Positions 43,384 through 60,877 of a DNA stretch of 64,000 nucleotides are shown piece after piece. Below the pieces are notes generated by a model, which had not been told where the DNA came from, made no database searches, and saw only the letters and a list, made by a program, of their open reading frames with translations. The DNA lies in NCBI GenBank assembly GCA_011523425.1, contig WTGU01000029.1, forward strand, positions 1 through 64,000, given 5' to 3'. A program made the position numbers and the translations under genes. Position 1 is the first letter of the stretch. Every line of letters starts with the position of its first letter. Source of the DNA: Alphaproteobacteria bacterium. Its GTDB lineage: Bacteria > Pseudomonadota > Alphaproteobacteria > UBA828.

Positions 43384-43393
43384 CGAGAGAGCC

Positions 43394-46027: not shown

Positions 46028-46402
46028 CTAGAGCCCCACGCCTTCGAGCGTGAGCGTTGCCTCCCAGGCGCGACGACCGTCGCCGCCGATGCGCGCGGTG
46101 TACGCGATCCCGCCGGCGCCGCCGCGCACGCGCACCCGGTGCTGCACGCCCGTCTCCGGCGCCGTCCAGGCAAACCAGCGGTGGGCGCAGTCGCGCGCCC
46201 AGGCGCGGAAGCGCCCATAATCGTCGTCGCTCGCGATCAGCGCCGTCACGCCGAGCGCCGTGAGCGCGCTCGCGTAGCGCCGCTCCTGGCGCACCAGCCC
46301 GTCGTCGAAGGGCGAGCGCTCGACATGCGCATCGTCGGCGACGGCGTAGCCCTCCGCCTCGACCGCCACATAGTCGGGCCAGACCAACCCTGTCTGACTC
46401 AT
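46028..46402 (-). CDS. Phage minor tail-region protein of unknown function
   Basis: 124 residues (GLVWPDYVAVEAEGYAVADD, HVERSPFDDGLVRQERRYAS, then FRAWARDCAHRWFAWTAPETG). The pattern of an early tryptophan strand and a DDG-containing loop is shared with small proteins found after the tape measure in siphovirus-type prophages, but I cannot place it in a named family. Copy C of the stem-loop repeat fills the gap before it. Confidence 0.6.
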   Translation of the reverse strand: MSQTGLVWPDYVAVEAEGYAVADDAHVERSPFDDGLVRQERRYASALTALGVTALIASDDDYGRFRAWARDCAHRWFAWTAPETGVQHRVRVRGGAGGIAYTARIGGDGRRAWEATLTLEGVGL

Positions 46403-47315: not shown

Positions 47316-47874
47316 TCACGGCGCGGCTCCCCGGGCCTCGGCGGTGCGGTAGAAGAGGACGATCTGGCGCCATGTCAGGCGCTCGCCGAGGTCGAAGTGG
47401 CCGCGTCCGTGGCCGGCCCGGACGAGGGTGTCGAGCACCCTTGCGAGCGCCACGGGTTCGTTTCCCGCGTCGCCATCTGCGCCACGACACGGCGCAAAAA
47501 AATCCGCCGTTCGCCGCCCACATCGCCTCCGACAGCGCGCGGCCGTCGGCGTCGTCCAGGCGCGCGAGCCAGGCGGCCTCGCGGTCGCAGGCACGGGCGA
47601 CCAGCTCCAGCCAGAGCGCCGCGTGGGCGGCGAGCGCCGCCTCGACCGCGAGCGCATCCGGCCCGCCCTCCGCATCGGCGTCGGCGTCCCCGTCACGGCT
47701 CGGCACCAGCGCCGCGAGCGCGGCGATCAGCGGACGCGCGAGCGCCGTCGCCTCCAACCCCTCGCGGAAGCGGAACTCCCGCACGGTGAGCGTCAGCGGC
47801 GCGCCCGTCTCCGGATCCCGCACCGGCACCGCGCGGTCGGGGAACAGCACCTCGAGCTCGCCGGCCGCGTCCAT
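47316..47874 (-). CDS. Phage tail assembly chaperone with a frame change at a T7 run
   Basis: ATG 47874 shares its A with the tail tube stop (TGATG). Frame 0 reads MDAAGELEVLFPDRAVPVRD and on to MWAANGGFF (126 residues). At TTTTTTT (47502-47496) plausible coding moves to the +1 frame, giving 59 more residues with ARVLDTLVRAGHG and FDLGERLTWRQIVLFYRT and a stop at 47316, for a 185-residue product. Without the shift, frame 0 runs to 193 residues, ends at 47293 and is Arg-rich throughout its last part. Lambda-type chaperones (G and GT) use programmed frameshifts at this position in the operon, between tube and tape measure. A real or artefactual 1-nt indel in the homopolymer would explain the same pattern. 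Confidence 0.7.
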
Positions 47875-48764
47875 CACACGGCCCGCCCGTCGATGTAGAG
47901 CGCGGGCCTGCCGCTGCCCGGCTCCAGCAGCGAGACGGCGAGCCGGATCTGCTGTTCCGAGGAGCGTCCGTCGAGCAGGGTCAGCGGGCCGGCGGGCTGA
48001 ATCGAGCAGCGCGGCGCGTAGATGTTGCGCCCCCGGCCCTCGGCCGCATCCTCGATGTAGCGGAAGGCGCCGACCACCTGCGTGAGCGCGCCCTGCACCT
48101 GGGGGCGGGCCTCGTCGGCGGGCGTGTAGTCGACGGTGAGCGCAGTGCCCGCCTCGATGCCGGCCTGGGCCTCGTGGAGAGGGTGATCCGCCGGCAGCCA
48201 GTAGAGGCGGGCACGCTCGTAGTCGACGATGAACTGGCCCGCCTGGCCGGTCTCCGTCGCGCCCTGGGCGAAGCGGCCGGCCTCTATGGCCTGAACCGCC
48301 GCCACCGGCTGCGGCGCCGTGGATGCGACGGTGACGGCCGCGATCGCCGCCGCCTGGTCCGCCGGCCGAGCCAGCCCGAGCACGCCGGCGGGGCGCGCCG
48401 CGCCGCCAAGCTGATGCCAGCGGCCGGGACGGAAGACGGCGGGCTCTCCCTGCGCCGCGTTGGCGGGATCGAGTCGCTTCACCGCGCCCACGGAGAACAG
48501 CGCCAGGTTCTCCAGGCTGATGTCGTGCAGCGTGAGCGTGACCGTGCGGGCGACGCTGCGGGCGATGCGCGCGAGCTCCGTCGCCACCGGGCCGGAGCCG
48601 GAGAAGACCGTCGTCTCCTCCGTCGTAATCTCCAGCGCGGCGCCGACCGCATCGCCCAGATAGCGCTCGCCCGTGGACGCGCCCCCCTCGTGGAGATCGA
48701 GATAGACCTCGCCGGCGCCGATCACGATGTTGTCCGTGCGCCTGTCGATGCTTCGCGCCGTCAT
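47874..48764 (-). CDS. Phage tail tube protein
   Basis: 296 residues from ATG 48764 after AAGGAGG; a longer frame upstream overlaps the previous gene too far. It begins TARSIDRRTDNIVIGAGEVY and contains LEITTEETTVFSGSGPVATE and ARTVTLTLHDISLENLALFS, the pattern of major tail tube proteins. It also has FIVDYERARLYWLPADHPL and a beta-rich C-terminal region. The start overlaps the previous stop (ATGA) and its own stop overlaps the chaperone start (TGATG). Confidence 0.75.
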   Translation of the reverse strand: MTARSIDRRTDNIVIGAGEVYLDLHEGGASTGERYLGDAVGAALEITTEETTVFSGSGPVATELARIARSVARTVTLTLHDISLENLALFSVGAVKRLDPANAAQGEPAVFRPGRWHQLGGAARPAGVLGLARPADQAAAIAAVTVASTAPQPVAAVQAIEAGRFAQGATETGQAGQFIVDYERARLYWLPADHPLHEAQAGIEAGTALTVDYTPADEARPQVQGALTQVVGAFRYIEDAAEGRGRNIYAPRCSIQPAGPLTLLDGRSSEQQIRLAVSLLEPGSGRPALYIDGRAV

Positions 48765-49261
48765 AGGGCAGCCTCCTTGCTCGTTGCGTCCCCCACCTCC
48801 ACCACGCCGGCGCGGGCGACACGGCGTATCTCGTACTCGTCCAGCCACTGCAGGCGGGCATCCTCGAGGGAGACCAGACGCCCGCGCCGGAAGGACAGCA
48901 CCTCGCGCTGGCCCGGCGGCGTCCAGCCGGCAAGCCCCCGACGGGCACGGGCTAGCAGCGGGGATAGTCGCTCCCGCCCGCGCGCGCCGGTGCGGTCGTT
49001 GGGCGCCGCCAGCATCAGCGAGACGCCGATGCGCACCACGTGCTGCACCGGCGCGTTCTCCACGCGCCGCGTCGTGCTCTCCTCGGCCTCGTCGGAGACC
49101 GGCAGCACCAGCGCCGCCGGCGTCTTCGGCCAGGCGGTGAGCGCCGCGGCATCGAGGGCGCTCAGCACCGCGGCGAAGAGCGGCGCACCACCCTCGCCCT
49201 CGAGCCCCGCCAAGCGCGCGGCCATGGCGTCGGCGACGTGGATTTCGAGGGCCGCGAGCAT
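48761..49261 (-). CDS. Phage tail terminator-like protein
   Basis: 166 residues from ATG 49261, which shares a base with the previous stop (TGATG). The N-terminal helix MLAALEIHVADAMAARLAGL, the strand VQHVVRIGVSLMLAA and the helix LSPLLARARRGLAGWTP fit the alpha/beta tail terminator or Gp37-like fold, small proteins that cap the tail tube. Position between the gpG-like gene and the tube gene agrees with this. Identity at family level is uncertain. Confidence 0.55.
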   Translation of the reverse strand: MLAALEIHVADAMAARLAGLEGEGGAPLFAAVLSALDAAALTAWPKTPAALVLPVSDEAEESTTRRVENAPVQHVVRIGVSLMLAAPNDRTGARGRERLSPLLARARRGLAGWTPPGQREVLSFRRGRLVSLEDARLQWLDEYEIRRVARAGVVEVGDATSKEAAL

Positions 49262-49710
49262 CAACCCGCCGCCCCTTCGAGCGCGCGCGAGAGGATGCGG
49301 GCGATGTCGCTCCGGTCGCGGTCGTCGATACCGAGGAAGGGCCGGGCCGGGAGCGTCACCCTGCGCCCCTTGCCGGTCCGGCCGCCGAACTGGTGAGCGG
49401 CGGCATGGGCGACGCTCGATCCCACCTCGACGCCGCGGCCATCGGCCGCGACCGTGTGGGAGATCGAAGCGCGCAGCCGCCCGCTCGCGACGAGCGTCCG
49501 CCCGCCGTCGGCCAGCGCCCGGGCGCTCTTCAGCCAGGGCGCGCCGTCGGGCCCGCGCTGCTGCGCGAAGCGCCGCAGCGTCGACGCGACCAGATGGCGG
49601 CCGATCTCGTCCATCACAGGGCGGGGCCGGGCCAGCGGTGCCGCGATGCGCGCAAGCTGCGCCGCGGCCGCCTCGGCGCCGATCTCGATGCCTGTTGCCT
49701 GCCCGGGCAT
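49261..49710 (-). CDS. Phage virion morphogenesis protein (Mu gpG-like)
   Basis: 149 residues. IGRHLVASTLRRFAQQRGPD followed by GAPWLKSARAL and GRTLVASGRLRASISHTVAA is the typical sequence of the phage virion morphogenesis/tail completion family that includes Mu gpG. VAHAAAHQFGGRTGKGRRV, ARPFLGIDDRD and a helical end complete it. Its ATG follows directly after the TAA of the 40-codon gene upstream. Confidence 0.85.
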   Translation of the reverse strand: MPGQATGIEIGAEAAAAQLARIAAPLARPRPVMDEIGRHLVASTLRRFAQQRGPDGAPWLKSARALADGGRTLVASGRLRASISHTVAADGRGVEVGSSVAHAAAHQFGGRTGKGRRVTLPARPFLGIDDRDRSDIARILSRALEGAAG

Positions 49711-49833
49711 TTATAAAGCCCTACCGCTGCGATCTTCTGCCGCGAGCCTGCCGGCGCGACGCTTGAGGGTGGGGATCTCTGCCCCCTTATCGATCCGCGC
49801 GCCTTTGGCGCGACGCTGCTTGAGGGCAATCAT
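49711..49833 (-). CDS. 40-residue basic protein in the phage operon
   Basis: ATG 49833 shares a base with the TAA stop of the DUF1320 gene (TAATG), and the TAA at 49713-49711 is directly followed by the ATG of the gpG-like gene. The peptide runs MIALKQRRAKGARIDKGAEI and ends RRAGRLAAEDRSGRAL, with 11 Arg or Lys residues in 40. GGCGGGG lies upstream as a possible ribosome site. No family is recognised. The exact packing matches the other junctions in this operon and is the main argument that it is translated. Confidence 0.5.
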   Translation of the reverse strand: MIALKQRRAKGARIDKGAEIPTLKRRAGRLAAEDRSGRAL

Positions 49834-50234
49834 TACAACCCCGCCAGGTTGTCGGGCGTCATGGCGGGGGCGGGGCCGGCGTGCGCCGCGCGCTGCAGGC
49901 GGGCCGCCGGCCGGCCGGCGGCATCGAGCAGGGCATCGCTGCCGGCGGCAAGCCGTGCGAGCGCTGCCCGCGCCTCGTCGGCGCGCGCGCTCACTTCGGC
50001 CGACGCCGCATCGTCGTAGAGCGCGCGGCGCGCCAGATCGCAGGCGATGCCCACGAGGCGCGGCCAGGGGCCGCCCTGCAGCGGCAGGCGATAGGCGGCG
50101 GCGAGCGCCGCATCGACCTCGGCCGCGGCGTCCGCCAGCGCGACATCGATCCGGCCCGCCTGCAGCCCGGCGAGATCCAGCGCCTCGTCCGTGCCGAAGC
50201 GGGTTTCCAGGTCCGCGCGCGTGGCGTAGGTCAT
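49833..50234 (-). CDS. DUF1320 family phage protein (Mu gp36-like)
   Basis: 133 residues from ATG 50234. TYATRADLETRFGTDEALDL at the start and VDAALAAAYRLPLQGGPWPR with LVGIACDLARRALYDDAA in the middle are the hallmark of DUF1320, found in Mu-type phages between head and tail genes. The role is probably head-tail joining. It overlaps the upstream gene by 4 bp (ATGA) and the downstream small gene by one base. Confidence 0.85.
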   Translation of the reverse strand: MTYATRADLETRFGTDEALDLAGLQAGRIDVALADAAAEVDAALAAAYRLPLQGGPWPRLVGIACDLARRALYDDAASAEVSARADEARAALARLAAGSDALLDAAGRPAARLQRAAHAGPAPAMTPDNLAGL

Positions 50235-51142
50235 GCGCCGCGCTCCGACGAGACCAGCCGCCAGAGCCGGTTGCGCTCGGCCCGCGCGATGTCGCCGAGG
50301 CCCGTCGCACGGCGCAGCGCGCGCAGGTAGGGTGCGCCGCGGTGGCGCCCGTGCTTCAGGCGCGGCCCCGTCCAGGCGCGCATGGCGGCGAGGATGGCCT
50401 GTGTGCGCGCGCCCTCCCGCACCGCCGCGTCCAGCACCGGCGCGGCGCGGGTTGCGGCCGGCTCCTCCAGCGGCCCGCCGTCCGGATCGAGCCCGGCTTC
50501 GGTCAGCACCCTCTCCCGCTCGCGCGCATAGAGGGCGATGCGCGCCTCGACGCGGGCGGTGGCGGCGGCAGCCTCCTCGGGCGTCTCGGTCACGCCGTGC
50601 TCGGCCATGGCGCGTTGGCGCCGGACCTCCTCCTCGCGCTCGCGCTCGATGGCATCCGCCATGCGGGCGGCGTAGGCGCGGGCACCGGCGCGGCGGGCGG
50701 CGAGCGCCGCCACGTCGGCATCGGCCTCCATCCGCGCGCACGCCTCGCGCACCTCGTCCGAAAGCCGCGGCTGCGGATGGTCGATGCCGAGCGGCGTGTA
50801 CTGCGGCACCGCCCGGCGCGCGCGCCCGGCGTAGTCGAGCACCGTGAGCAGCGTGACCGAGGGCTCCTCCACGATGCGCCGCTCGGCGCGCTGGAGGTCG
50901 CGCATCTCCGGCACGAGCCGCTCGCGCAGCGTGCGGCCCATGGCGCCCGGGCGCAGCCATCCGGTCCACGAATCCCTGATCTCGCAGTAGGCGTGGACCA
51001 AGTTGAGCATGCGCTCTGCGTGCCGGCAGACCTCGTTCTCGGCCGCGCTCTGGCGCGCATCGCTCGGCGAATAGCCGACGCCGCAGAGGTGGTCGGGGGG
51101 TCGCGCCGGAAGGCGCGCGGACGAATCGCGTGAGGGTGCCAT
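50231..51142 (-). CDS. Phage head-region protein of unknown function
   Basis: 303 residues. The N-terminal half has two cysteines close to the start (CGVGYSPSDARQSAAENEVC) and helical segments. ADAIEREREEEVRRQRAMAE and a long charged helix around residues 170-220 suggest a coiled coil. The C-terminus is basic (ARAERNRLWRLVSSERGA). There is no recognised family and it does not resemble a portal. It starts 3 bases after the capsid gene stop and overlaps DUF1320 by ATGA. Confidence 0.65.
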   Translation of the reverse strand: MAPSRDSSARLPARPPDHLCGVGYSPSDARQSAAENEVCRHAERMLNLVHAYCEIRDSWTGWLRPGAMGRTLRERLVPEMRDLQRAERRIVEEPSVTLLTVLDYAGRARRAVPQYTPLGIDHPQPRLSDEVREACARMEADADVAALAARRAGARAYAARMADAIEREREEEVRRQRAMAEHGVTETPEEAAAATARVEARIALYARERERVLTEAGLDPDGGPLEEPAATRAAPVLDAAVREGARTQAILAAMRAWTGPRLKHGRHRGAPYLRALRRATGLGDIARAERNRLWRLVSSERGA

Positions 51143-51145
51143 GGG

Positions 51146-52120
51146 CTACGCCACGGCGTTGCGCCAGAGGTAGCCGGCGCGGCCGTAGGCCACCAGCTCC
51201 CTGACGCATTCGCTGACCTTGACGACGGTCGAGCCCCGATTCACGCCGCGCGCCGGCGCCTCGTAGGTGCCGACCTGGAGCCCGCCGAGGGCATCGGCGG
51301 TCCAGCAGAACTTGGGCATCCGGTCGCGGGCGGACGCCATGTCGGGCCGGACGTGGATGGCGCAGGCGTGGCGCCCCCAGAGGCGGGCGAAGGAGTCCTC
51401 CTGACCGCGCCTCGCGCTCTGGTACCAGGCCATGCCGACCAGCACGCGGTCGACCTCGAAGAGCTCGGCGACCGCCTCCTTCATCACGATGCCGGAGGCC
51501 TGGTCGCCCGCGCCGGTGGCGGACACCGCCTCGACGATCTTCGGATGCTGGCGCAGCGCGGTCCACACCTTCTGGCCGAAGACCAGCGTGTTGGGGCGCA
51601 CCAGCGGCACGTCGAGGGCTTCCAGGATCGCCTTGCGCGGATTGGCGTTGGCGTGGCTCCACTGCGCGTTGCCGTTGAGCGTGGCGGAGTGACCGTCGGC
51701 GTAGTTGTCCGCGGTCGTCACCAGGTCGGCGACGCGCCGCTCGCGGGCGAGCCTCACCAGCTCGGCGGTGGAGATCGCCGCCTGCTCCAGCGGGTCGTAG
51801 GCGATCTCCTGCGCCTGCGCCTCCTCGATGTCGCGGGAGGGGACCGGGTCCTCGAGACCGTAGTCGACGACGCTCTCGGTGGTGTCGGTCGCGCCGAACT
51901 CCACCTGGTTGAGGTGCCCGGCCCGGCTCGCGCGCACGTCCGGAATGGTCAGCAGGTCCTCTTCGCTGAGCGTGGTGTAGGTGAACTTGAAGCCGGTGCG
52001 GACGCGCGGGCAGACCTCGTCGGCGATCAGGCCCGAGGGCATCGCCGCCTGCGCGATCTGCGTCAGTCGGGTCTGGACCTCGTAGGGGCCGGAAGCGAGT
52101 TGGGCGGTGTCGTGTTCCAT
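51146..52120 (-). CDS. Putative phage major capsid protein
   Basis: 324 residues from ATG 52120; the in-frame extension upstream is antisense to the decoration gene. It begins MEHDTAQLASGPYEVQTRLT and has an extended N-terminal arm. FKFTYTTLSEEDLLTIPD, the loop VEFGATDTTESVVDYGLEDP, then NTLVFGQKVWTALRQHPKI and ELFEVDRVLVG follow. This is the pattern of HK97-fold major capsid proteins in phage of this kind. Position after protease/scaffold and the small decoration gene supports the assignment. Confidence 0.8.
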   Translation of the reverse strand: MEHDTAQLASGPYEVQTRLTQIAQAAMPSGLIADEVCPRVRTGFKFTYTTLSEEDLLTIPDVRASRAGHLNQVEFGATDTTESVVDYGLEDPVPSRDIEEAQAQEIAYDPLEQAAISTAELVRLARERRVADLVTTADNYADGHSATLNGNAQWSHANANPRKAILEALDVPLVRPNTLVFGQKVWTALRQHPKIVEAVSATGAGDQASGIVMKEAVAELFEVDRVLVGMAWYQSARRGQEDSFARLWGRHACAIHVRPDMASARDRMPKFCWTADALGGLQVGTYEAPARGVNRGSTVVKVSECVRELVAYGRAGYLWRNAVA

Positions 52121-52130
52121 GGTGTTTCCC

Positions 52131-52487
52131 CTAGTGGAGGCTGGGTACGAGCAGCACCTGGCCGATATCGCCGGCGACGCCGGAGACCTCGGCGATGCCG
52201 ATGACGCGATTGCCGCCGGCGGCGGTGACGGCCTTGCCGTCGCCGTCGGCGGTGAGCAGCGCTCCCCGCGCGACCGTGCCGCCATATTCGATGTCCGCGA
52301 TGCCGACGCGGGCGATCTCGACGCGACCGCCCGAGGCCGCCGCCGCCCGGCCGGAAACCCCGACATGGGCATCCGCCGCGGCGGACGACTGCACCACCTT
52401 GCCGTCGGCATCGTCGTACTTGACGATCCGGCGCGGGGCGACGGCGCCGCCGGCGTCCGCCGCCCGCCACATCAGTACATGACTCAT
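52131..52487 (-). CDS. Phage capsid decoration (DUF2190-like) protein
   Basis: 118 residues. It is beta-rich: RRIVKYDDADGKVVQSSAAA, GIADIEYGGTVARGALLTAD and GNRVIGIAEVSGVAGDIGQV. The pattern of a small barrel with GARLTADGDGKAV-type turns fits capsid cement proteins of the DUF2190 type that bind the outer capsid. It lies between protease and capsid genes, where such genes normally are, and overlaps the protease stop by ATGA. Confidence 0.75.
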   Translation of the reverse strand: MSHVLMWRAADAGGAVAPRRIVKYDDADGKVVQSSAAADAHVGVSGRAAAASGGRVEIARVGIADIEYGGTVARGALLTADGDGKAVTAAGGNRVIGIAEVSGVAGDIGQVLLVPSLH

Positions 52488-53578
52488 TGAGCTCCTCCTC
52501 CGGTGCCGAGCCCGCGCCTCGCGCGCGCCCGATCCACTGCTTCTGCTGGTGTGAGGGTTGCGCCCCTCTCCGCCTCCGCCGCCATCAGGGCGCGGGCTTC
52601 GGCGGCGATTCGGCCGCTGTCCTCTTGGGCGGCCTCGCGGGTGTCCGCCGGGCCCGAATCGCCCGGCAGCGGGCCGCCCGCGAGCGTGCGGTAGTCCACG
52701 CGCCGGGGCAGGCCCTCGAGAAACCGTTCCAGGAGGGCGGCAGGCTGCGCCCGTTCCTCGCCGCCGTCAGCCGAGGCGAAGACGATGGCGGTCTCCTCGC
52801 CTTCCGCCACCTCGTGACCCACGAGGGCCGCGAGCAGCGCCGCGAGGCCAGCGCGCTCGGCCGGAAGGACCCGGCCGGCCTCGACATGGCGAGCGAGCGC
52901 GGCCTCCGCCTGGCGTCGCCTCTCGTCCGCTGCGAGCGCCGCCTCCCGCATGGCGAGCTGCGCCTCGCGCTCGTCGAGAGCGGTTGCTTTCTCGGCCAGC
53001 GCGATGTCGTCACCGTCATCCCCTCCCCGCCCCGCGGGCGCGGAGAGGGGAACGAGGCTGTCGCCGTCTTCGTCCCCTGTCGCCCCGCGGGTGCGGAGAG
53101 GGTCCGGGTGTGGCGGGCGCGGGTCGCCGGGCGAGTCCACCCCGCCGTCGTCCGTGGCGCCGTGCGCGCCGTCCTCGAAGGCAAGCACCGCCTCCGGCTC
53201 GGCGGCGAAGCGCGTCGGCACGAGACCCGGCACCGCCGGCGCACGCCCGCCGAGAAAGCCGACATGGCGCAGCGTGTCGCCCTGCAGCGCGATCGAGCGG
53301 CCGGCGTAGAGCCCGGCCTCCACCGCCTCGCGGAAGGCCGGCGCGATGTCGCGCAGGGTCGCCTGCAGCCGGTCGCCGACGCGGCGCAGGCCCTCGATCC
53401 AGGCGTAGGCCGGCGCGTCGGTCTCGGGATGGCCGACCACGACGGGCGCCGGGTCGGCGGCGGCATGGGCCGCGACGATCCGGTCGAGCCGGTCGACGTC
53501 GAGGCGGACGGCGCGGCCGGCCAGGTCCTGCCAGGTGCCGGCGCGGCAGATATCGATCCAGCCGTCGAGGGCGCTCAT
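52484..53578 (-). CDS. Phage prohead protease/scaffold (Mu gpI-like)
   Basis: 364 residues from ATG 53578, preceded by GGAGGCGC. Residues 1-140 match the Mu-type I protein (IDICRAGTWQD, VVVGHPETDAPAYAWIEGLR, AFREAVEAGLYAGRSIAL, GRAPAVPGLVP). Residues about 156-187 come from a palindromic repeat (53019-53113). Residues 190-260 are a coiled coil rich in Glu and Ala (AEKATALDEREAQLAMREAA), which serves as scaffold. The protein would assemble the prohead and cut itself and partners. The neighbour upstream should be portal or gpF but is an unrelated plus-strand gene. Confidence 0.8.
   Translation of the reverse strand: MSALDGWIDICRAGTWQDLAGRAVRLDVDRLDRIVAAHAAADPAPVVVGHPETDAPAYAWIEGLRRVGDRLQATLRDIAPAFREAVEAGLYAGRSIALQGDTLRHVGFLGGRAPAVPGLVPTRFAAEPEAVLAFEDGAHGATDDGGVDSPGDPRPPHPDPLRTRGATGDEDGDSLVPLSAPAGRGGDDGDDIALAEKATALDEREAQLAMREAALAADERRRQAEAALARHVEAGRVLPAERAGLAALLAALVGHEVAEGEETAIVFASADGGEERAQPAALLERFLEGLPRRVDYRTLAGGPLPGDSGPADTREAAQEDSGRIAAEARALMAAEAERGATLTPAEAVDRARARRGLGTGGGAQ
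53019..53113 (-). repeat. Palindromic REP-like repeat translated inside the protease/scaffold gene
   Basis: On the minus strand it reads CCGGACCCTCTCCGCACCCG, then a central GACGAAGACGGCGACAGC and CCCTCTCCGCGCCCGCGG. It encodes the peptide start PHPDPLRTRGATGDEDGDS. The same pattern of two hairpins with a GACGGCGAC-like spacer occurs outside genes at 61631-61744. Confidence 0.8.
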
Positions 53579-53850
53579 CTCGCGCCTCCGCGGGCTAGGC
53601 AGCGATGAGTGGTGCCCCGGATGGGGCGGTGGGCGGGTGCCGAAGCGGTCAGTGCGTTCATGGCGCGGACAATGCCTCGGCGCGCACGGCCTGTGCATCG
53701 CACCATGGTCCGGGGTGTTAACCCTCCGCTTCGCGCTGCGGCACCGCCCGGCCGGCCCGCTCCGCGCTGGACAGAAAGCGAGCCGGGCTGTGAGATGGCC
53801 CGGAGTCTTCCGGCCTCCGGCCGGCCTCTCGGCGGAACGGAGATGCGGCC

Positions 53851-54777
53851 ATGTCGGCAGAAGAACGGGGAAAGCGCGTCGTCCTCCTGGACGGCGGCGT
53901 GGGGCAGGAGCTGCACAAGCGGGGCACCGGGCCGGCTGCGCCTCTCTGGTCCGTGCAGGTGATGATGGACGAGCCGCACCTCGTCGAATCAGTGCATCGC
54001 GACTTCATCGAGGCGGGCGCCCGCATCATCACGGTCAACGCCTACACCGCGACGCCGCACCGGCTGGCGCGCGCCGGCAAGGGCGACATGTTCGATGCGC
54101 TGCAGGCCGCCGCCGTCGCCGCAGCGAAGGCCGCGCGCGATGCCAGCGGTCGGACGGTCAGGATCGCCGGCTGCCTGCCGCCTCTGGTGGGGAGCTACCG
54201 GCCCGACCTGACGCCGCCGGAGGACGTCCTCCGCGCGGACTACGGCAGGATCGTCTCGGCGCAGGCCGACCACGTGGACCTCTTCCTGTGCGAGACCATG
54301 CTGTCGGCGGCGGAGGCGTGCGCGGCGACGCGCGCCGCGCGCGCGAGCGGCAGGGCCGTCTGGACGGCGTTCTCGGTCGACGATGCGGACGGCACCCGGC
54401 TGCGCTCGGGCGAGCCGGTGGCGGACGGCGCGCGCGCGGCCATCGACACCGGCGCCGAGGCGGTGCTGATCAACTGCTCGAGTCCGGAGGCGGTCACCGC
54501 CGCCATGCCCATCCTGGCCGAGCTCGGGGTGCCGTTCGGCGCCTACGCCAACGGCTTCGTCTCCATCGGAGCCCTGCAGCCGGGCAGGACCGTCGACGTG
54601 CTGGAGGCGCGCGACGATCTGGACCCGGCGCGCTACGCGGACCACGCCATGCAATGGATCGCGGCAGGCGCCACCATCGTCGGCGGCTGCTGCGAGATCG
54701 AACCCGCCCACATCGCCGCAATCGGGCGCCGCCTGGAAGCGGAGGGCTACGACCTCGCGGCCGATCCTCGGCCTTGA
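53851..54777 (+). CDS. Homocysteine S-methyltransferase family protein
   Basis: 308 residues. LLDGGVGQELHKRG opens the barrel, then IITVNAYTATPHRLARAG. INCSSPEAV supplies the first zinc cysteine, and VGGCCEIEPAHIAAIG the Cys-Cys pair. Members move a methyl group from S-methylmethionine or a related donor to homocysteine. It is complete and points opposite to the phage operon in which it is placed, between terminase and protease. The hydrolase gene follows after 110 bp. It is probably chromosomal cargo rather than a phage gene. Confidence 0.88.
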   Translation: MSAEERGKRVVLLDGGVGQELHKRGTGPAAPLWSVQVMMDEPHLVESVHRDFIEAGARIITVNAYTATPHRLARAGKGDMFDALQAAAVAAAKAARDASGRTVRIAGCLPPLVGSYRPDLTPPEDVLRADYGRIVSAQADHVDLFLCETMLSAAEACAATRAARASGRAVWTAFSVDDADGTRLRSGEPVADGARAAIDTGAEAVLINCSSPEAVTAAMPILAELGVPFGAYANGFVSIGALQPGRTVDVLEARDDLDPARYADHAMQWIAAGATIVGGCCEIEPAHIAAIGRRLEAEGYDLAADPRP

Positions 54778-54887
54778 CCCGGCGGCACCGGGCAGGCGCC
54801 CGCCTGAGGAGCCGGGCGCTCGCTCCGGGCAGGCGGAGCAACTATTCTCGGCCCGCGACGCGCCGACCGACGACGGGTGATACAGGC

Positions 54888-55775
54888 ATGTTCGAAGGCT
54901 TCACCGGAACCCGCATCGAGACCTCGTCCGCCGCCATCAATCTGGTCACCGGCGGCGCGGGTCCTCCACTCCTCCTGCTCCACGGCTATCCGCAGAACCA
55001 CGTGATGTGGCACAAGGCGGCGCCCGCTCTCGCCGCGCACTACACGGTCGTGGCGCCCGACCTGCGCGGCTACGGCGACAGCAGCAAGCCGGCCTCCGAC
55101 GAGTTGGAAGACCACTGCAAGCGCGCCTCGGCGCGGGACCAGGTGGAGGTGATGGCGGCGCTGGGCTTCGATCGCTTCCACGTCGTCGGCCACGACCGCG
55201 GCGCCCGCGTGGGCCATCGCATGGCGCTCGACCACCCCGCGCAAGTCCGCACCTTCACCTCGCTCGACGTGGTGGCCTCCCAGGCGGTCTTCGAGAACAT
55301 GGACCGCGACCTCGCGTTCTCGTTCTTCCACTGGCACCTGATGCGCCAGCCGGCGCCCTTCCCGGAGACGCTGATCGGCAACAGCCCGAAGCTCTTCCTG
55401 GACTTCCTGCTGGCGCAGTGGTGCGCCGTCGCCGGCGCGATCACGCCCGAGGCCTACGCCGACTATCTCCGATGCTTCAGCGATCCCGAGACGCTGCGCT
55501 GCATGTGCCTGGACTACCGCGCCATCCAGCTCGATCTCGTCCACGACGAGGCGGACCGGGGCCGGCGCATCGCCTGCCCGATGCTGGTGCTCTGGGCCGG
55601 CGACATGGCCCGGCGGCCGGGCTGGCAGACCGGCGGGTCGCTCGACGTGCTGGAGAGCTGGCGCGAGCGCGCCGAGGACGTGCAGGGCCGCGCGCTGCCG
55701 TGCGGCCACTTCCTGCCCGAGGAAGCGCCCGAGGAGACGGTTCGCGAGATCCTGGCCTTCCTCGCCGATCGCTGA
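54888..55775 (+). CDS. Alpha/beta hydrolase, haloacetate dehalogenase-like
   Basis: 295 residues from ATG 54888. LLLLHGYPQNHVMWHKAAP is the oxyanion segment, VVAPDLRGYGDSSKPASDE the next strand, and FHVVGHDRGARVGHRMALDH has an aspartate as nucleophile in place of serine. FHWHLMRQPAPFPETLIG matches the His-Trp halide-binding region of fluoroacetate dehalogenases, and CGHFLPEEAPEE holds the catalytic histidine. It could cleave a haloacid or an epoxide. It is the second of two plus-strand genes inside the phage late region and converges on the terminase gene, 19 bp away. Confidence 0.82.
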   Translation: MFEGFTGTRIETSSAAINLVTGGAGPPLLLLHGYPQNHVMWHKAAPALAAHYTVVAPDLRGYGDSSKPASDELEDHCKRASARDQVEVMAALGFDRFHVVGHDRGARVGHRMALDHPAQVRTFTSLDVVASQAVFENMDRDLAFSFFHWHLMRQPAPFPETLIGNSPKLFLDFLLAQWCAVAGAITPEAYADYLRCFSDPETLRCMCLDYRAIQLDLVHDEADRGRRIACPMLVLWAGDMARRPGWQTGGSLDVLESWRERAEDVQGRALPCGHFLPEEAPEETVREILAFLADR

Positions 55776-55794: not shown

Positions 55795-57147
55795 TCAGAA
55801 GAAGTCGACGAGTCCGCTCGCACGGCGGCGGGCGGCGATGCCTTCGATCCTCGGGCTGCCGGTGCGGGCGGCGGCGCAGGCGAGCGCGAGCGCCCAGAAG
55901 CGATCGGCGTGACCGTCCGTGGCGGAACGCTCCGCCATCAGCCGGGGCGCGCCCGTCGGCCCCGCTTCGGCGCGGACCGCATGCAGGTCGCGCCTGAGAT
56001 CGGCGTCCGCCGGGAGGCGCAGCCTGCGGTCCTCCACCGCCTCGCGCAGCGCCGTCGCCGCGTCGAGACGGCGCGGCCCGGTCATCAGCACGCCGTCGAC
56101 CGTTGCGCTGCCGAGCTCCTCCTGAAGCTGCTCCACCACCGCCTCGCCCATGCCGGTCTGATCGACGGCGATGCGCGCCGGGCGGTAGCGGGCGGCGAGC
56201 ACGCCGACCAGCGCCCGCTGCGCGCTGAAGGGAATGGCGCGCCGGGTCACCAGCTCGCGCAGCCACAGCACGTCGCCCACCTGCTCGAGCACGGCCGCCA
56301 CCCAGAGGTCGCGGCGCCGCGCCACGTCCACGCCGATGGTCGCGGTGCCGCCGGCGAAGGCGGCGGGATCGCCCGCCGCCGCATGCTCGCAGGCGCGGAT
56401 CGCGTCCCAGCCGAGCCAGGCGCCGGCGCCGGCGGCGGGGATGCAGTCGAGTTCCTCGCCCGCATGGGTTCCGTACTCCGTCCTGAGCGCCGCCTCCCAC
56501 GCGGCTTCGGCGCGTGTGGACCAGGGCTGCACCCTCTCCTCGCAGATGCGGCGGAAGAGCCCCTCGGCCAGCGCCTCCTTCAGCGTGACGCGGTGGAGCG
56601 AGCCAGGCCGCCTGCCCTCGCGCAGGTCATGGCAGAGGACGGCGAAGGGGTTGGCCTCGCCGTTGTGGGTGCTGATGACGTGCGCCCGCCCGCCCCAGAC
56701 CCGGAACGCCATCGCCGCCTTGAGCACCTGGCCGAGATCGTCGACGAAGGCCGCCTCGTCGACGATGGCGAGATCGCCGGGCCGGCCCCTGGAGCGGAAG
56801 GCCCGGGGCGCGCTCGTCATGGCGAGGATCTCGCGGCCCGAGGCCAGCGCGATGCGGAAGGCCCGGAGGCTGCGCGGGCCGTCCGCGATCAGGGTCTCGC
56901 CGAGGCGGGTGGCGCCGATCTCCAGCGCCTTCGCCCAGCGGGCGCAGTCCTCGATGAAGCCGCGCGTCATCTCCAGGTTGTAGGCCTGGTAGTAGACGTT
57001 GCCGCCGCCGCGATTGCCCGCGTGCACCACGGCGCCGTAGGCCTCGGCCCAGGAGATGCCGATACGGCGCGCCTTCTCGATCACCTTGAACCCGGCATCG
57101 TCCGAGACCCAGCGCGTCTGATAGGGAAGCAGGCTGAACCTGCTCAT
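55795..57147 (-). CDS. Phage terminase large subunit (Mu gp28-like)
   Basis: 450 residues. SLLPYQTRWVSDDAGFKVIE and KARRIGISWAEAYGAVVHAG form the ATPase entry; the usual GK(S/T) of Walker A is GIS here, as in several gp28-type proteins. RPGDLAIVDEAAFVDD is Walker B. The C-terminal nuclease has TATIGVDVARRRD, ARIAVDQTGMGEAVVEQL and TDGHADRFWALALACAA with the metal-binding aspartates. It cuts and pumps phage DNA into proheads. The portal gene that should follow is absent. Confidence 0.85.
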   Translation of the reverse strand: MSRFSLLPYQTRWVSDDAGFKVIEKARRIGISWAEAYGAVVHAGNRGGGNVYYQAYNLEMTRGFIEDCARWAKALEIGATRLGETLIADGPRSLRAFRIALASGREILAMTSAPRAFRSRGRPGDLAIVDEAAFVDDLGQVLKAAMAFRVWGGRAHVISTHNGEANPFAVLCHDLREGRRPGSLHRVTLKEALAEGLFRRICEERVQPWSTRAEAAWEAALRTEYGTHAGEELDCIPAAGAGAWLGWDAIRACEHAAAGDPAAFAGGTATIGVDVARRRDLWVAAVLEQVGDVLWLRELVTRRAIPFSAQRALVGVLAARYRPARIAVDQTGMGEAVVEQLQEELGSATVDGVLMTGPRRLDAATALREAVEDRRLRLPADADLRRDLHAVRAEAGPTGAPRLMAERSATDGHADRFWALALACAAARTGSPRIEGIAARRRASGLVDFF

Positions 57148-57300
57148 CGTCCCCTGCCCCGCCGCGGCTCCTGCCGCGACGTTGAGCGGAGACGGGCATG
57201 CTTGCCGGCCGACGCGTGACGCATGACGCCATGGTGCCGGCGACCGTCGGCGCCGGCCACCGGACCATGGTGCGCCGGGACCGCCCGTGCGCCGGCGTCG

Positions 57301-57864
57301 CTACGGGTCGATCCCGAAGATGAAGTTGAGCCCGAACAGGCCGATTTCCAGGCCGTCGCCGTCCGTCTGGTAGGTCGAGCCCAGCGCCGGGCGCGCCCCC
57401 GTGCTCGCCGCGAGCGAGCCGGCGCCCTCCCAGGGCAGCGGGCCCTGCCAGACGATGTTCGACCTGATCGCATAGAGGGCGCAGTCGGGCCGGGCGCCGG
57501 GATGAGCCGCCGCGACCTCCGCACGGCAGAGCTGGAGAGCGTGGTGCTTGTAGTAGACGTCCTTGACCGAGCGGGACCAGGGATTGGCCAGGCTCTGGCA
57601 GCGGCCGGGAGCGCAGTAGACGTACCAGCCACCCAGCCCATTGCGGTCGAGGGCGAGCACGGCATAGCCGCGCCGCGCCTGGCGCAGATATTTTTCCCAC
57701 CAGTCCGAGAACCACGCCGGCGCGCCCGCGTGCAGATCGTCGGCACGCAGCGCCGGCCCGGCGCCGGGCCCTTCGACCGCGCGTATGCGGTGGCCCTCGA
57801 TGTAGGCGGGCGCGGCGCAGGCGGCGAGCGCGGCGAGCGCGACGCCGACGATCAATGCTCGCAT
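57301..57864 (-). CDS. Small lipoprotein downstream of the phage repressor
   Basis: 187 residues starting MRALIVGVALAALAACAAPA, a short signal peptide with a lipobox cysteine at 16. The mature part has GWYVYCAPGRCQSL, a paired-cysteine loop, then HHALQLCRAEVAAAHPG, CALYAIRSNIVWQGPLP and a hydrophobic end LEIGLFGLNFIFGID. A pattern of Cys followed by lya...iVW is seen in uncharacterised secreted alphaproteobacterial proteins. It starts 35 bp after the repressor stop and is likely transcribed with it, so it would be made in the lysogen. The role is unknown; a superinfection exclusion lipoprotein is one possibility. Confidence 0.65.
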   Translation of the reverse strand: MRALIVGVALAALAACAAPAYIEGHRIRAVEGPGAGPALRADDLHAGAPAWFSDWWEKYLRQARRGYAVLALDRNGLGGWYVYCAPGRCQSLANPWSRSVKDVYYKHHALQLCRAEVAAAHPGARPDCALYAIRSNIVWQGPLPWEGAGSLAASTGARPALGSTYQTDGDGLEIGLFGLNFIFGIDP

Positions 57865-57899: not shown

Positions 57900-58823
57900 T
57901 CATTCGAAGGTGCGGGAGGCCCAGCGCACCTCGCCGATCACCTCCGCCTCGCGCGGCCAGGGAACCTCCGCCCAGGACGGGTGATCGCTGACAAGAAACC
58001 ACTGCCGCCCGCGCCGGTCCAGCCGCTTGACCACCAGGCCCTCGCCGGTGCTGACGACGAAGATGCGCCCGGCGCGGCGACGGGTGCGATCCCGATCCAC
58101 CAGGATCTTGGTGCCGGCGGGCAGGGTCGGCTCCATGGATTCGCCCCGCACGGAAATTACCACACAGCGCGTCGGGTCCATGCCGTGGTCGTCGAGCCAG
58201 TCGCGCCTGAACCAGACCGGCCCCTTGACCGGCGCCTCGTCGAGATTGACCGCCCCGCCGCCGGCCGCAGCCTCGACCTCGCGCGTCCCCACCGAGCGTG
58301 CGGCAGGCGGCACGCTGTCCTCGTTCGCCGCCGCGACCGGCCGCGCGTCGGAACCGCCGAAGCTGGCACCCGGCGCCGGCCGCAGCTCGTCCGGAATCGG
58401 ATCGCCGCCGGCACCGGTGACGAGCCGGTTCAGGGCCTGCGCGCCCGCCTCCAGATCGCGCAGCGCGGCGGGCGAGAGGCCGCCTCGCGCGGCAGCACCC
58501 GCCTTGGGCGGAGCGCCGGACGGATCGTCGACACGGGGCTCGTGCAACGCCCTCACGCCGGTTGCGGGCGGCAGGGGTGACGGAGCGGATGCGCGCGCCT
58601 CCCCGGGCGGGCCGATGGAAAGCGAGAGCCCGAGAGCGGCGCAGATCTCGGCCGCACGGTCCACCGACGGCGCCTGCCGGCGGGTCGGGTCGAGAATGCC
58701 GCGCAGCGCCCAGGGCCGCAGACCATGCGCGGCCTCGAAGCGCCGCGCGCCCACGCCCGCCGCCTCCAGCGCGTCGCGCACGGCGCGGCGGATCTGCTCG
58801 CTCGGTCGGGGCCGACTCGACAT
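57900..58823 (-). CDS. Phage repressor, LexA-like S24 peptidase type
   Basis: 307 residues from ATG 58823. The N-terminal part (SEQIRRAVRDALEAAGVGAR, AHGLRPWALRGILDP) is a helix-turn-helix domain, then an Ala/Pro-rich linker of about 110 residues. The C-terminal S24 domain has VVISVRGESMEPTLPAG with the serine (about S229) and GEGLVVKRLD with the lysine (about K266). The self-cleavage AG or CG site is not obvious. Such repressors bind operators as dimers and are removed by RecA-stimulated cleavage. It faces the Ner-like gene across a dyad-rich intergenic region. Confidence 0.85.
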   Translation of the reverse strand: MSSRPRPSEQIRRAVRDALEAAGVGARRFEAAHGLRPWALRGILDPTRRQAPSVDRAAEICAALGLSLSIGPPGEARASAPSPLPPATGVRALHEPRVDDPSGAPPKAGAAARGGLSPAALRDLEAGAQALNRLVTGAGGDPIPDELRPAPGASFGGSDARPVAAANEDSVPPAARSVGTREVEAAAGGGAVNLDEAPVKGPVWFRRDWLDDHGMDPTRCVVISVRGESMEPTLPAGTKILVDRDRTRRRAGRIFVVSTGEGLVVKRLDRRGRQWFLVSDHPSWAEVPWPREAEVIGEVRWASRTFE

Positions 58824-58914
58824 GTGCACAATATAGCACAAACGATCGTGCAGAAAAGTGCTTGATTCGACTATGCGTGATCGTGCATATATGTTTAATG
58901 GTGCACAGCGATCA
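58822..58914. promoter_or_regulatory. Divergent operator/promoter region of the phage switch
   Basis: This short, AT-richer segment has repeated GTGC/GCAC half-sites: TGTGC-N8-GCACA at 58823-58840, CGTGC-N5-GTGC around 58847-58861, and TGATCG ... CGATCA with inner GTGCA ... TGCAC at 58878-58914. A rightward promoter TTGATT-N17-GCATAT (58862-58890) and a leftward TATATT 6 bases from the repressor ATG can be seen. Both start codons fall about where transcripts would begin, so one or both mRNAs may be leaderless. Confidence 0.6.
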
Positions 58915-59158
58915 ACTCCTCGTCACCCTCATCCGCACATATGCGGCGGCCCGCGGCATCTCCGTCTCCTACGCCTCGCGCCTGCTCACCGGCAGCGGCG
59001 ACACGGTGGACCGCATCGCTGCCGGGATGAGCGTCACCGCGCGCCGGGCCGAGGCCATCCTGGGCCGCGCGTCCGAGCGTTGGCCCGCCGGCCTCCCCTG
59101 GCCCGCCGGCATTCCCCGCCCGGCCGCGCGCGCCGACGACGACCGGGGCGCGGCATGA
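58898..59158 (+). CDS. Small DNA-binding phage regulator (Ner/Cro position)
   Basis: 86 residues from ATG 58898 (GTG 58901 is the next choice). HSDQLLVTLIRTYAAARGIS, then VSYASRLLTGSGDTVDRI and MSVTARRAEAILGRASERWP, is all helical and fits a small helix-turn-helix regulator. No Shine-Dalgarno motif precedes the start. The position opposite the repressor is that of ner or cro in Mu-type phages. In Mu the next genes would be transposase A and B, but here the Gam-like gene comes directly after. Confidence 0.6.
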   Translation: MVHSDQLLVTLIRTYAAARGISVSYASRLLTGSGDTVDRIAAGMSVTARRAEAILGRASERWPAGLPWPAGIPRPAARADDDRGAA

Positions 59159-59207
59159 CCGGTCCGCGCCGGCCCTCGGGAACGCGAGGCGCGAGAAGGA
59201 GGATCAG

Positions 59208-59753
59208 ATGACCCGACCGTCCCCGCAGTTGCCGGGCCCCATGCAAGAGATCGTCGCTCTCGCCCGCGCCTTCGCGGCCGCGCGGGAGGCGACGGAGACG
59301 TTGGCGGACGACATCCGGGCGCTGCAGCGCAAGGCGCTCAGCGGCAGGCTGCGTGCGCTCCGCAGCCGCATCGCCGAGCAGGCGGCGGCCGAGGAGGCGC
59401 TGCGCGAGGCGATCCGGGCCCGGCCCGATCTCTTCATCCGCCCGCGCACGGTCGCCATCGACGGCGTCAGGTTCGGTCTGCGCAAGCAGCCGGGCGCCGT
59501 CGCGCTCGGCGACGAGGCGCAGGCGATCAGGCGGCTTCGCGCCCGCTTCCCCGAACGGGCCGAGGCACTGATCCGGGTGCGGGAGACACTCGACCGCCAG
59601 GCGCTGCGCCGGCTCACCGCCGCGGAGCTCGCGCAGATCGGCGTCACCGTCGAGAAGGCGACGGACGAGGTGACCATCGCGACGGCACGGAGCGAGCTCG
59701 ACGGCATCCTCGTCGCCCTGCTCGACGACACGGGCCCGGCGGAGGCGGCATGA
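59208..59753 (+). CDS. Host-nuclease inhibitor Gam-like protein
   Basis: 181 residues after a strong AGAAGGAGGATCAG site. A long N-terminal coiled coil (REATETLADDIRALQRKALS, LRALRSRIAEQAAAEEALRE) leads into TVAIDGVRFGLRKQPGAVAL, ERAEALIRVRETLDRQALRR, and a C-terminal IGVTVEKATDEVTI. This is the order of Gam proteins of Mu-type phages: paired helices, a beta strand pair and the final EEF-like strand. Mu Gam protects linear DNA ends from host exonuclease. Assignment is by pattern and operon position. Confidence 0.55.
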   Translation: MTRPSPQLPGPMQEIVALARAFAAAREATETLADDIRALQRKALSGRLRALRSRIAEQAAAEEALREAIRARPDLFIRPRTVAIDGVRFGLRKQPGAVALGDEAQAIRRLRARFPERAEALIRVRETLDRQALRRLTAAELAQIGVTVEKATDEVTIATARSELDGILVALLDDTGPAEAA

Positions 59754-60451
59754 CGGAACGACTCATTCATATCCCTCAGGCGCCGGGCGCTCGCTCCGCG
59801 AGCTTGGCTACGCGCCTATCGGCGCGCGGCGCGGTCGCGCCGTCCGGGCCTGACGGCCCGGCCCTCCCCGCAGGGCCGGCCACGCGCAAGCTGCGGGCGC
59901 TCTGGATCAGCGCCTTCCATCTGGGTATCGCGCGCGAGCGCTCCGATGCGGCGCTCGCGGACTGGGTCTGCCGCCGAACGGGCCTCGACGCCGATACCGG
60001 CGCCGCGTCCGCCGATCTTGCCGGCGCCGCCCGCGCGCTCGAGGCCTGGCTCGCGCGTGCCGCGGGCGTCGACTGGCGGCCGCACCTCTCCCTCGGTCGC
60101 GACGGCCGGGTGCGGGAGACGCGCCACCCCCGGGCACGGGTGCTGGAAGCGCAGTGGCGCCTGCTCCATCGCCGCGGCCTGGTTCGCATCGGCAGCCTCG
60201 CCGCGCTCGGCGCCTATGCCGCCCGCCACGCCGGCCTCGAGCGCCTCGATTCGCACCTCGCGCTCACCGATTCCCAGGCCGATGCGCTGATCCGTCATCT
60301 CGGCAAGCGGCTGCGGGCGGCGCTCGACGCCTGCGACGAACGCGGGGCGAAGACGGCCGAAGCCCCCTGGAAGAAGCGCAGGAAGCGGCTCGGCCGTCGC
60401 GGGGCGCGGCCTGCGGCGTGCCCTCATCCGTTCGCCTCGACCGGTGAGTGA
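59750..60451 (+). CDS. GemA-like regulatory protein with a tandem domain
   Basis: 233 residues; the ATG overlaps the Gam-like stop as ATGA. The first seven codons (MTERLIH) are followed by about 33 residues from stem-loop repeat copy D. RKLRALWISAFHLGIARERS with DAALADWVCRRTGLD and ALEAWLARAAGVDW matches the DUF1018/GemA domain of Mu gp16-type proteins. A second copy follows: ARVLEAQWRLLHRRGLVRIG, ALGAYAARHAGLERLD and ADALIRHLGKRLRAALD. The C-terminus is basic. GemA alters host gene expression and DNA gyrase use in Mu; the effect here is unknown. Confidence 0.6.
   Translation: MTERLIHIPQAPGARSASLATRLSARGAVAPSGPDGPALPAGPATRKLRALWISAFHLGIARERSDAALADWVCRRTGLDADTGAASADLAGAARALEAWLARAAGVDWRPHLSLGRDGRVRETRHPRARVLEAQWRLLHRRGLVRIGSLAALGAYAARHAGLERLDSHLALTDSQADALIRHLGKRLRAALDACDERGAKTAEAPWKKRRKRLGRRGARPAACPHPFASTGE
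59770..59873 (+). repeat. Stem-loop repeat copy D, translated near the N-terminus of the GemA-like gene
   Basis: It reads ATATCCCTCAGGCGCCGGGC on the plus strand, through CTTGGCTACGCGCC, and ends GGCCTGACGGCCCGGCC. The orientation relative to the gene is the same as for copies A-C. It encodes IPQAPGARSASLATRLSARG in the reading frame also used by copy A. Confidence 0.88.
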
Positions 60452-60496: not shown

Positions 60497-60877
60497 GTGA
60501 GCCGGGGCAGAGGCGGCATCGCTGACATGAATGCCTGCGACCGCGCCCTTCCCGGCGTCCTCGACGAGATCGCCGGCGTCGCCGGAAAGGCGACCGCCAT
60601 CAGGATGGCGCTGGCCTGGGGCGGCCGCGAGGTTCACATCCCCAAGCCGCGCCATCTCGCCCGCCATCCGGATCACCCGCTCGCCCGCCTGCTGGAGGCG
60701 GAGGGGACCGCGCTCAAGGTGGCGGACTATCTTGGCGGCTGCAGCGTCTACCTGCCCCGCGCCAGGCGTGCCTGCGCCATCCACCTCGCCGCCGCCGGCG
60801 CGACCCCGGCGGAGGTCGCCGCCCGCCTCGCCATCGCCCCCGGTGTCGCCCGCCGCTACGTCCGCGGCGCGCCCTGA
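60497..60877 (+). CDS. Mor-like middle/late transcription activator
   Basis: 126 residues from GTG 60497; ATG 60527, ten codons later, is equally possible, and neither has a good ribosome site. LPGVLDEIAGVAGKATAIRM with WGGREVHIPKP, the strand that dimerises Mor, is followed by LGGCSVYLPRARRA and a C-terminal helix-turn-helix GATPAEVAARLAIAPGVARR. This is the order of the Mor/C family of Mu, which turn on middle or late genes. It is the last phage-like gene on the right. Its target promoters would have to lie on the opposite arm. Confidence 0.65.
   Translation: MSRGRGGIADMNACDRALPGVLDEIAGVAGKATAIRMALAWGGREVHIPKPRHLARHPDHPLARLLEAEGTALKVADYLGGCSVYLPRARRACAIHLAAAGATPAEVAARLAIAPGVARRYVRGAP

Follow-up and report, generated by a model that had tools for sequence, protein, structure and literature searches.

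In the window, that is, the whole stretch of 64,000 nucleotides analysed here, which lies on contig C80 (84,574 bases), a cluster of early phage-type genes surrounds the place where transposase genes would be expected in Mu-type phages. This genome (G000) was compared with seven others of its genus (G014 to G020; n = 8 in all), and a family search over 21 genomes added 13 from outside the genus. The early cluster contains the following features:

57301 to 57864, minus strand: small protein conserved beside the repressor, no family match; 52-57% identity in four other genomes
57900 to 58841, minus strand: repressor, CI/LexA-like (phrog_4 transcriptional repressor, E 2e-27); orthologues in 6 of 8 genus genomes
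58898 to 59158, plus strand: Ner-like HTH protein (phrog_7669, E 2e-18, function not named); 73-77% identity in the other five of six genomes
59159 to 59207, no strand: ner-gam junction, the expected place of A and B in Mu-type phages; 49 bases
59208 to 59753, plus strand: Mu Gam-like end-protection protein (phrog_491 Mu Gam, E 3e-9); dN/dS 0.31
59750 to 60451, plus strand: GemA-like protein (Pfam GemA, 63.7 bits against a cut-off of 27)
60497 to 60877, plus strand: Mor-type activator (Pfam Mor, 26.8 bits, just over the cut-off of 24.9; phrog_836 late transcriptional activator, E 8e-12); dN/dS 0.17

The first-pass annotation, made from the letters of the window, had placed the end of the Ner-like gene at 59158 and the start of the Gam-like gene at 59208 with its own ribosome site, and the open reading frames and an AGGAGG preceding the ATG at 59208 agree with both. 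The family labels given at that stage held for GemA and Mor, which score above their Pfam cut-offs, and in part for Gam, which is recognised by PHROG and falls below its Pfam cut-off (25.0 bits against 28.3). The Ner-like protein has no Pfam family match, and no named family supports the label "Ner". AlphaFold predicts a four-helix fold of HTH type (pLDDT 83), for which Foldseek returned no significant PDB match (E <= 0.001), and the model of the Mor-type protein likewise gave no match at E <= 0.001. Because only 49 bases separate the Ner-like and Gam-like genes, there is no room for A and B at the junction. In each of the six early clusters of the genus, ner and gam lie -1 to 272 nt apart, and a Mor-family protein is encoded in every early cluster found. 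The gap between repressor and ner (58842-58897) contains several GTGCA/TGCAC half-sites, which are likely the operators that the earlier annotation named "dyads". In one relative (G016, contig C106), the gam-gemA spacing reaches 1531 nt, longer than in the other five genomes, and neither A nor B lies there.

Late genes and their promoter elements occupy the stretch between the early cluster and atpH:

57231 to 57275, minus strand: late-promoter element upstream of TerL, a weaker copy, aligned with 23 other sites
55795 to 57147, minus strand: large terminase TerL, Mu gp28 type (phrog_2, E 3e-28; Terminase_6C); about 80% identity in five other genus genomes
53851 to 55775, plus strand: two host-type genes, homocysteine S-methyltransferase and alpha/beta hydrolase (Pfam), occupying the expected portal/head place
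53669 to 53714, minus strand: late-promoter element of the head-tail operon (dyad 53698-53713; -10-like box 53669-53674)
52484 to 53578, minus strand: head maturation protease/scaffold (phrog_976, E 2e-46); start conserved in seven genomes
52131 to 52487, minus strand: head cement/decoration protein (Phage_cement_2, 22.0 against a cut-off of 24); 85-90% identity, 8 of 8 genomes
51146 to 52120, minus strand: major capsid protein (phrog_1005, E 7e-68); 90-93% identity, 8 of 8 genomes; dN/dS 0.10
50231 to 51142, minus strand: conserved head-region protein, no family match; in 7 of 8 genomes
49833 to 50234, minus strand: adaptor candidate, which we take to be Mu gp36-like; orthologues in 7 of 8 genomes, 69-89% identity to the G014 protein
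49261 to 49710, minus strand: Mu G-like neck protein (Phage_tail_S, 102 bits; phrog_26)
48761 to 49264, minus strand: tail terminator (Phage_tail_terminator, E 3e-18)
47874 to 48848, minus strand: major tail protein (phrog_807, E 2e-28)
47316 to 47696, minus strand: tail assembly protein; 80% identity, over part, to a G015 protein matching DUF6631
46527 to 47303, minus strand: short tape measure protein, 258 aa (Tape_meas_lam_C, E 3e-18); 239-280 aa in six genomes
46028 to 46402, minus strand: virion structural protein (phrog_384, E 2e-12)
45617 to 46009, minus strand: head/fibre-like small protein (phrog_240; Gp80)
43902 to 45584, minus strand: minor tail protein (phrog_396, E 6e-25; DUF1833)
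37279 to 43692, minus strand: central tail fibre J-like ORF beside atpH (phrog_31, E 1e-98); same atp-operon position in G016 and G019

Homologues of tailed-phage structural and packaging genes, a mark of gene transfer agents (GTAs), are thus present, and Mu-type head, portal and terminase genes were confirmed by Portal_Mu (302 bits), Phage_Mu_Gp27 and a B3-like capsid. The portal gene lies outside the window on contig C30, as do the Gp27-type small terminase (TerS) genes on C52 (one) and C100 (two). A capsid start at 52411 was rejected as a spurious 5′ extension, together with the stops flagged there, the true start being 52120. The opposed strands of early and late genes were considered as a sign of inversion, a view dropped since phage B3 has the same layout. 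The element loci of the other genomes did not yield the homocysteine S-methyltransferase and alpha/beta hydrolase pair.

The central claim of the first-pass annotation, that A and B are absent between the Ner-like and Gam-like genes, was confirmed by tblastn, which found no A/B remnant in the window or in 17 other cluster contigs. The queries were A and B of phage B3, an A/B pair of contig C80 and A of a same-genus prophage (G016:C24), and the same search recovered real A/B copies on C80 (outside the window), on C52 and in the prophage, where B lies near 3097-3936. That A and B belong between ner and gam is supported too, as they precede gam-gemA-mor in that prophage and lie in the early operon of B3, which ends with gemA-mor. 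The prophage itself (G016:C24, 836-17680), which served as a control, is Mu-like and truncated-looking and keeps the canonical order A, B, gam, gemA, mor, TerS, TerL, portal, MuF. The proposed whole-genome profile search gave two Mu-transpos_C matches, both outside the window (C80:75209-75364 and C52:18932-19090); PF02914 (DDE_2) had no match in this genome and none in its controls, hence it is uninformative. Mu-transpos_C has no match in G015 and G019 (estimated 93% and 96% complete), and its matches in the remaining genus genomes lie in a prophage or in the two-copy transposon described below, or are unassigned.

The finding named beforehand as fatal to the claim, A and B just outside the window, formally exists at C80:73538-76882:

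C80:73538 to 74512, minus strand, outside the window: B, phage-type transposition protein
C80:74858 to 76882, minus strand, outside the window: A, phage-type transposition protein

However, this pair is a separate two-copy transposon and not part of the early cluster, because it starts 12.7 kb past the end of mor with Dps, XRE-cupin, a transporter and other host-type genes between, has a copy on C52 with the same outer end, and shows low GC3 and no phage neighbours. The two copies share 85% DNA identity across 2.1 kb up to the common outer end (C80:73351 and C52:20955), B on C52 being 93% identical and A reduced to its C-terminal part. G014 shows synteny from Dps up to the gene at 69742-71643, there without A or B. 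The transposon (C80:73351-84574, beyond the window, and C52:18806-20955) stands beside low-GC3 genes resembling sugar catabolism and transport (a ROK regulator by Pfam, ABC genes by eye), and it may be a Mu-like transposon carrying cargo.

The capsid gene was found in all eight genus genomes and in none of the 13 other family genomes. The portal has a match in 8 of 8 genomes, reduced to 7 because that of G017 is prophage-type (36%), and TerL in 7 of 8, reduced to 6 for the same reason, one of these being cut by a contig end. The early cluster (gam with ner, gemA, mor and Dps nearby) is present in 6 of 8. Gaps occur in G017 and G020, which are 62% and 67% complete, and in G018 (92% complete) the early cluster is missing from the assembly. 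TerL and portal adjoin each other, apart from the head-tail operon; in G014, a 14-kb stretch of host genes separates them from the early cluster, in G015 they lie 6 kb past mor, and in G016, G018 and G019 their contigs yielded no other element gene. The two true prophages, G016:C24 and G017:C628, are the only places where MuF occurs, and none of the clusters has it. The head-tail-terminase-portal set is present in most genomes, with MuF absent from the clusters, no Gp27 TerS found in G015, and G016 missing the DUF1320-gp80 part of the operon along with most of its protease. This last genome is 99% complete, and its lineage looks decayed. At that locus (G016:C87), part of the head-tail operon is deleted from within and the protease is truncated; a small gene pair nearby resembles a toxin-antitoxin system (by eye). 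All assemblies are drafts with contamination of up to 7%, so that gene absence and locus separation are partly uncertain. A scan of viral_contigs with the capsid alignment yielded no relative. Co-occurrence in related strains next to atpH had been suggested as a check: the transposase-less set recurs genus-wide, and the head-tail operon lies next to atp in G000, G016 and G019, the genomes whose contigs reach that far.

Selection was estimated as the median dN/dS over species pairs (Nei-Gojobori), using only orthologues that cover at least half of the reference and leaving out the G016 protease, the G017 major tail protein, the G018 TerL and the DUF1833 proteins of G015 and G016. The ratio was below 1 in all 29 gene sets tested (0.07-0.67), three of which were host genes serving as controls (atpA 0.07, Dps 0.12, XRE-cupin 0.16). 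The most constrained element genes were capsid (0.10), terminator (0.14), cement (0.16), Mor (0.17), portal (0.18) and the holin-like gene (0.19), followed by major tail (0.23), TerL (0.27), repressor (0.29), Gam (0.31) and tape measure (0.36), with J (0.44), DUF1833 (0.50) and collar (0.67) evolving faster. The pS values of element genes (0.25-0.46) are like or slightly above those of host genes (0.25-0.32); therefore there is no sign of recent horizontal spread. Vertical inheritance together with purifying selection, a further mark of GTAs, was found over the eight genus genomes, and the spread of the genes over several loci, with no A or B in the clusters, agrees with what is expected of a GTA, which has no self-mobility genes and is unable to carry its full gene set. 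The set lacks the A/B transposase and ATPase that define a Mu/B3-type transposable phage.

Since the ner-gam spacing is so short in six of six clusters, A and B were evidently already gone in the ancestor of the genus, or lost very early, and the head gene MuF appears to have shared this fate. The repressor-ner-gam-gemA-mor circuit and most particle and packaging genes, judged by their substitution patterns, evidently stayed under purifying selection over several loci. Domestication shows itself in the loss of A and B. The suggestion of the first-pass annotation that the cluster kept its regulatory circuit and lost its mobility is borne out by ner and gam abutting in 6 of 6 clusters and by the lack of Mu-transpos_C in G015 and G019. 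Beyond that suggestion, the loss is not a local one: the set is genus-wide and vertical, with head, tail, terminase and portal genes kept.

The late operons share an element made of a 16-bp near-palindrome, CCGSACCATGGTGCGG, and a -10-like NATNNT that starts 31 bp after its centre, at a fixed spacing over 24 aligned sites. These sites precede the protease in seven genomes, TerL in five, the portal in seven and a DUF5675/holin-like pair in five; each copy has 0 to 3 palindrome mismatches, and the -10 is atypical in the TerL copy of this genome and in one other. The element is also found before the DUF5675/holin-like pair of this genome (C124) and before the collar fibre of G015. If the hexamer is taken as -12 to -7, an assumption of this geometry, the dyad centre falls at -43.5. 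The Mor dimer of Mu is described as binding two inverted 5-bp repeats in a 16-bp element centred at -43.5, which replaces the -35 box (PMC4390567). The element thus appears to match the geometry of a Mor-dependent promoter, with a dyad centred at -43.5, a -10 box of assumed identity and no -35 box, and by analogy the Mor-type activator would bind the dyad.

At up to two mismatches, the element has 34, 37, 9, 43, 10, 24, 23 and 19 copies in G000 and G014 to G020, respectively, against a total of four in the 13 other family genomes and 0-1 per genome for a reversed-pattern control. At one mismatch, two of 288 other genomes of the class have one match each, compared with 16 in this genome. Among the 34 copies of this genome, three precede structural genes (protease, portal and the DUF5675 pair), two precede small terminases and 29 have neither kind of gene. 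The view of the element as a pure late promoter of structural genes was dropped, since the genome-wide count gave many more copies. Two gene-less sites of this genome have flanking genes in common with element sites in G015. In the latter, the sole genome without Gp27 TerS, copies on C99, C39 and C18 have in common a different, AT-rich stretch downstream (about TGCAAAACgAACCCAATTTCGCATA).

Gp27-family TerS genes, fragments included, number 3, 9, 0, 7, 3, 4, 3 and 2 in G000 and G014 to G020, none having been found in G015. Two lie in the prophages G016:C24 and G017:C628, and a third, G020:C37, is near a Mu-transpos_C match. The element lies upstream of TerS at 23 of the 30 loci examined (of 31), and the seven without it include both prophages, one locus cut by a contig start and two C-terminal fragments. 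A 10-bp self-match over the final 150 bases of the gene or the 400 after it reached p <= 0.05 at 15 of the 26 TerS genes with downstream sequence, these p-values being slightly too favourable as 550-bp stretches were set against a 400-bp background. The prophage TerS genes (G016:C24 and G017:C628) have neither element nor array (p 0.66 and 0.78). In this genome, an RTCCC-type array follows TerS1 (C52) and TTGTGCC-type arrays follow both C100 copies. Duplicated TerS cassettes mostly start at the dyad or a few bases before it, with two pairs extending further upstream, and mostly end about 690-870 bp on and 60-250 bp past TerS.

Similar arrays accompany copies of the element that have no gene. 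Forty of these were tested, 26 from G000, where three more ended at contig edges, and 14 from G014, where 16 element loci of 37 places were taken in. RTCCC occurs 254 times in the 400 bases downstream of the 40 elements, against 18 upstream (39 stretches) and 56 on the other strand, and pairs are spaced 10 bp apart in 83 cases, 9 in 33, 11 in 15 and 12 in 9, with none at 6-8 or 13-17. This spacing test is better than the lag-10 self-match, but the word RTCCC was chosen after inspecting the arrays. The self-match, a weak test for RTCCC arrays, gave p <= 0.01 in 10 of 26 and p <= 0.05 in 15 of 26 copies of G000, and in 4 and 6 of 14 copies of G014. One or both kinds of array were seen in 36 of the 40 gene-less copies and neither in four. 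A clear 10-bp array is missing from the four other element copies of G015, of which one reaches p <= 0.05. Rfam had no match in nine array loci and the window. Ring-shaped small terminases are described as presenting adjacent HTH motifs about one B-DNA turn apart, a single such motif having little sequence preference, and the SPP1 pac site as containing direct repeats and reaching across the start of the small terminase gene (PMC4737164). The phase and strand of the arrays, their linkage to TerS and their absence from prophage TerS fit packaging sites, and that they are such sites is quite possible, if short of probable.

The best reading of the whole set is a domesticated B3-type transposable phage, probably a GTA, with dispersed particle genes under a shared switch. 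The existence in the genus of a selected, transposase-less B3-type system is very likely, and that this system makes gene-transfer particles is somewhat favoured. The Mor-type activator of the early cluster would turn on all the scattered late operons together through the 16-bp dyad, whose centre lies about 43.5 bp upstream of the start site, and the operons so switched on would yield short-tailed particles. Because there is no transposition and no phage genome to replicate, host DNA would be packaged and the particles would work as a GTA. With less certainty, the Gp27 small terminases may start packaging at the direct-repeat arrays of about 10 bp that lie 3′ of them, and the gene-less promoter-plus-array copies across the chromosome may be further packaging start sites. 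A GTA of transposable-phage origin that, instead of losing sequence-specific packaging, multiplied it, TerS and phased arrays having been copied so that about 30 cassettes serve as switchable start sites fired by one Mor-type activator, is put forward tentatively.

The same genes could be those of a decaying B3-like prophage, a single ancient insertion, now eroding, from which A and B disappeared and which rearrangement broke apart, its conservation reflecting slow decay. The absence of about half of the head-tail operon from G016, the host genes between TerL and protease in this genome, and the separate contigs of portal and TerL would all be expected of such a remnant. However, median dN/dS well below 1 in 29 of 29 gene sets (capsid 0.10) and the same promoter element retained by late genes at separate loci make decay unlikely. 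A phage-tail-like bacteriocin (tailocin) that carries no DNA would explain the retention of a tail module that includes J-like fibre and collar proteins, but not that of capsid, cement, portal and TerL, with capsid and portal more constrained than most tail genes, and it is highly improbable. Nearly as improbable is a phage satellite or helper-dependent phage that obtains its transposase in trans from other Mu-type elements, for instance the A/B pair at a distance of 12.7 kb. That pair is intact-looking and on the same contig, but it belongs to a separate element, G015 and G019 have no Mu-transpos_C match at all, and the loci are dispersed at fixed places.

For the promoter-plus-array copies, a more substantial alternative, possible if somewhat doubtful, is a non-autonomous repeat family (MITE- or REP-like) that has taken the phage late promoter as its left end and is unrelated to packaging. 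Duplicated TerS cassettes with largely consistent ends, at or just before the dyad and 60-250 bp after TerS, would suit such a family, as would the copy number of 9 to 43 per genome and the gene-less, intergenic position of most copies. Its weakness lies in the arrays, whose repeats keep a phase of about 10 bp on a single strand. They occur after many TerS genes, though not after prophage TerS, and are of two kinds that track different TerS paralogues of this genome; some copies also occupy orthologous positions in G015.

Among known systems, the domesticated B3-type phage proposed here is closest to phage B3 of Pseudomonas (Beetrevirus; AF232233.1), with which it shares early (mor-gemA...) and late genes on divergent strands to either side of the repressor, and the gene order TerS-TerL-portal followed by protease-cement-capsid. 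B3-type capsids are among the closest matches, at 38.7-39.7% identity in the best 20 of 52 matches, which are mostly to B3-type phages. In contrast, a single 38-kb block of B3 carries A, B, gp30/MuF and a tape measure of 1099 aa, whereas the genus set is dispersed, lacks A, B and MuF, and has a tape measure of 239-280 aa. The promoter element resembles the Mu middle promoter Pm, described with a 16-bp dyad centred at -43.5, a -10-like box and no -35 box (PMC4390567), and a Mor-family gene is in the cluster. The likeness is one of geometry, and the element stands before many dispersed operons instead of one. SPP1/SF6-type pac sites likewise have direct repeats beside the small terminase gene with a spacing of about one turn for HTH motifs (PMC4737164), but the putative sites of the genus sit at the 3′ terminus of terS and number in the tens across the chromosome.

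RcGTA and RcGTA-like elements (Rhodogtaviriformidae) are also described as domesticated tailed-phage genes at several loci, vertically inherited in Alphaproteobacteria (PMC9662315, PMC11841831). In contrast to RcGTA, the genus set derives from a transposable phage, its late operons carry an element like a Mor site, and its Gp27 TerS is multicopy instead of single. The RcGTA small terminase is described as having no N-terminal DNA-binding domain, and GTAs as having, as of 2019, no known packaging start site (PMC6854486); passages of a 2024 review ask how the chromosome is recognised for packaging and state that GTAs appear to need no packaging initiation site (PMC11841831). Three independently exapted GTA groups were formally recognised in 2022 (PMC9662315), in a text where the term "Mu-like" does not occur, and among titles and abstract openings of the open-access literature we found no GTA derived from a transposable phage and none with dispersed packaging sites. 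If the reading is true, a transposable phage tamed by the loss of its transposase would represent another origin of GTAs and a new kind of GTA, and, were the arrays packaging sites, the first with dedicated, genome-wide packaging start sites. Because the TerS-array cassettes over the chromosome supply both a named DNA sequence and a named protein, they open the packaging question to direct testing.
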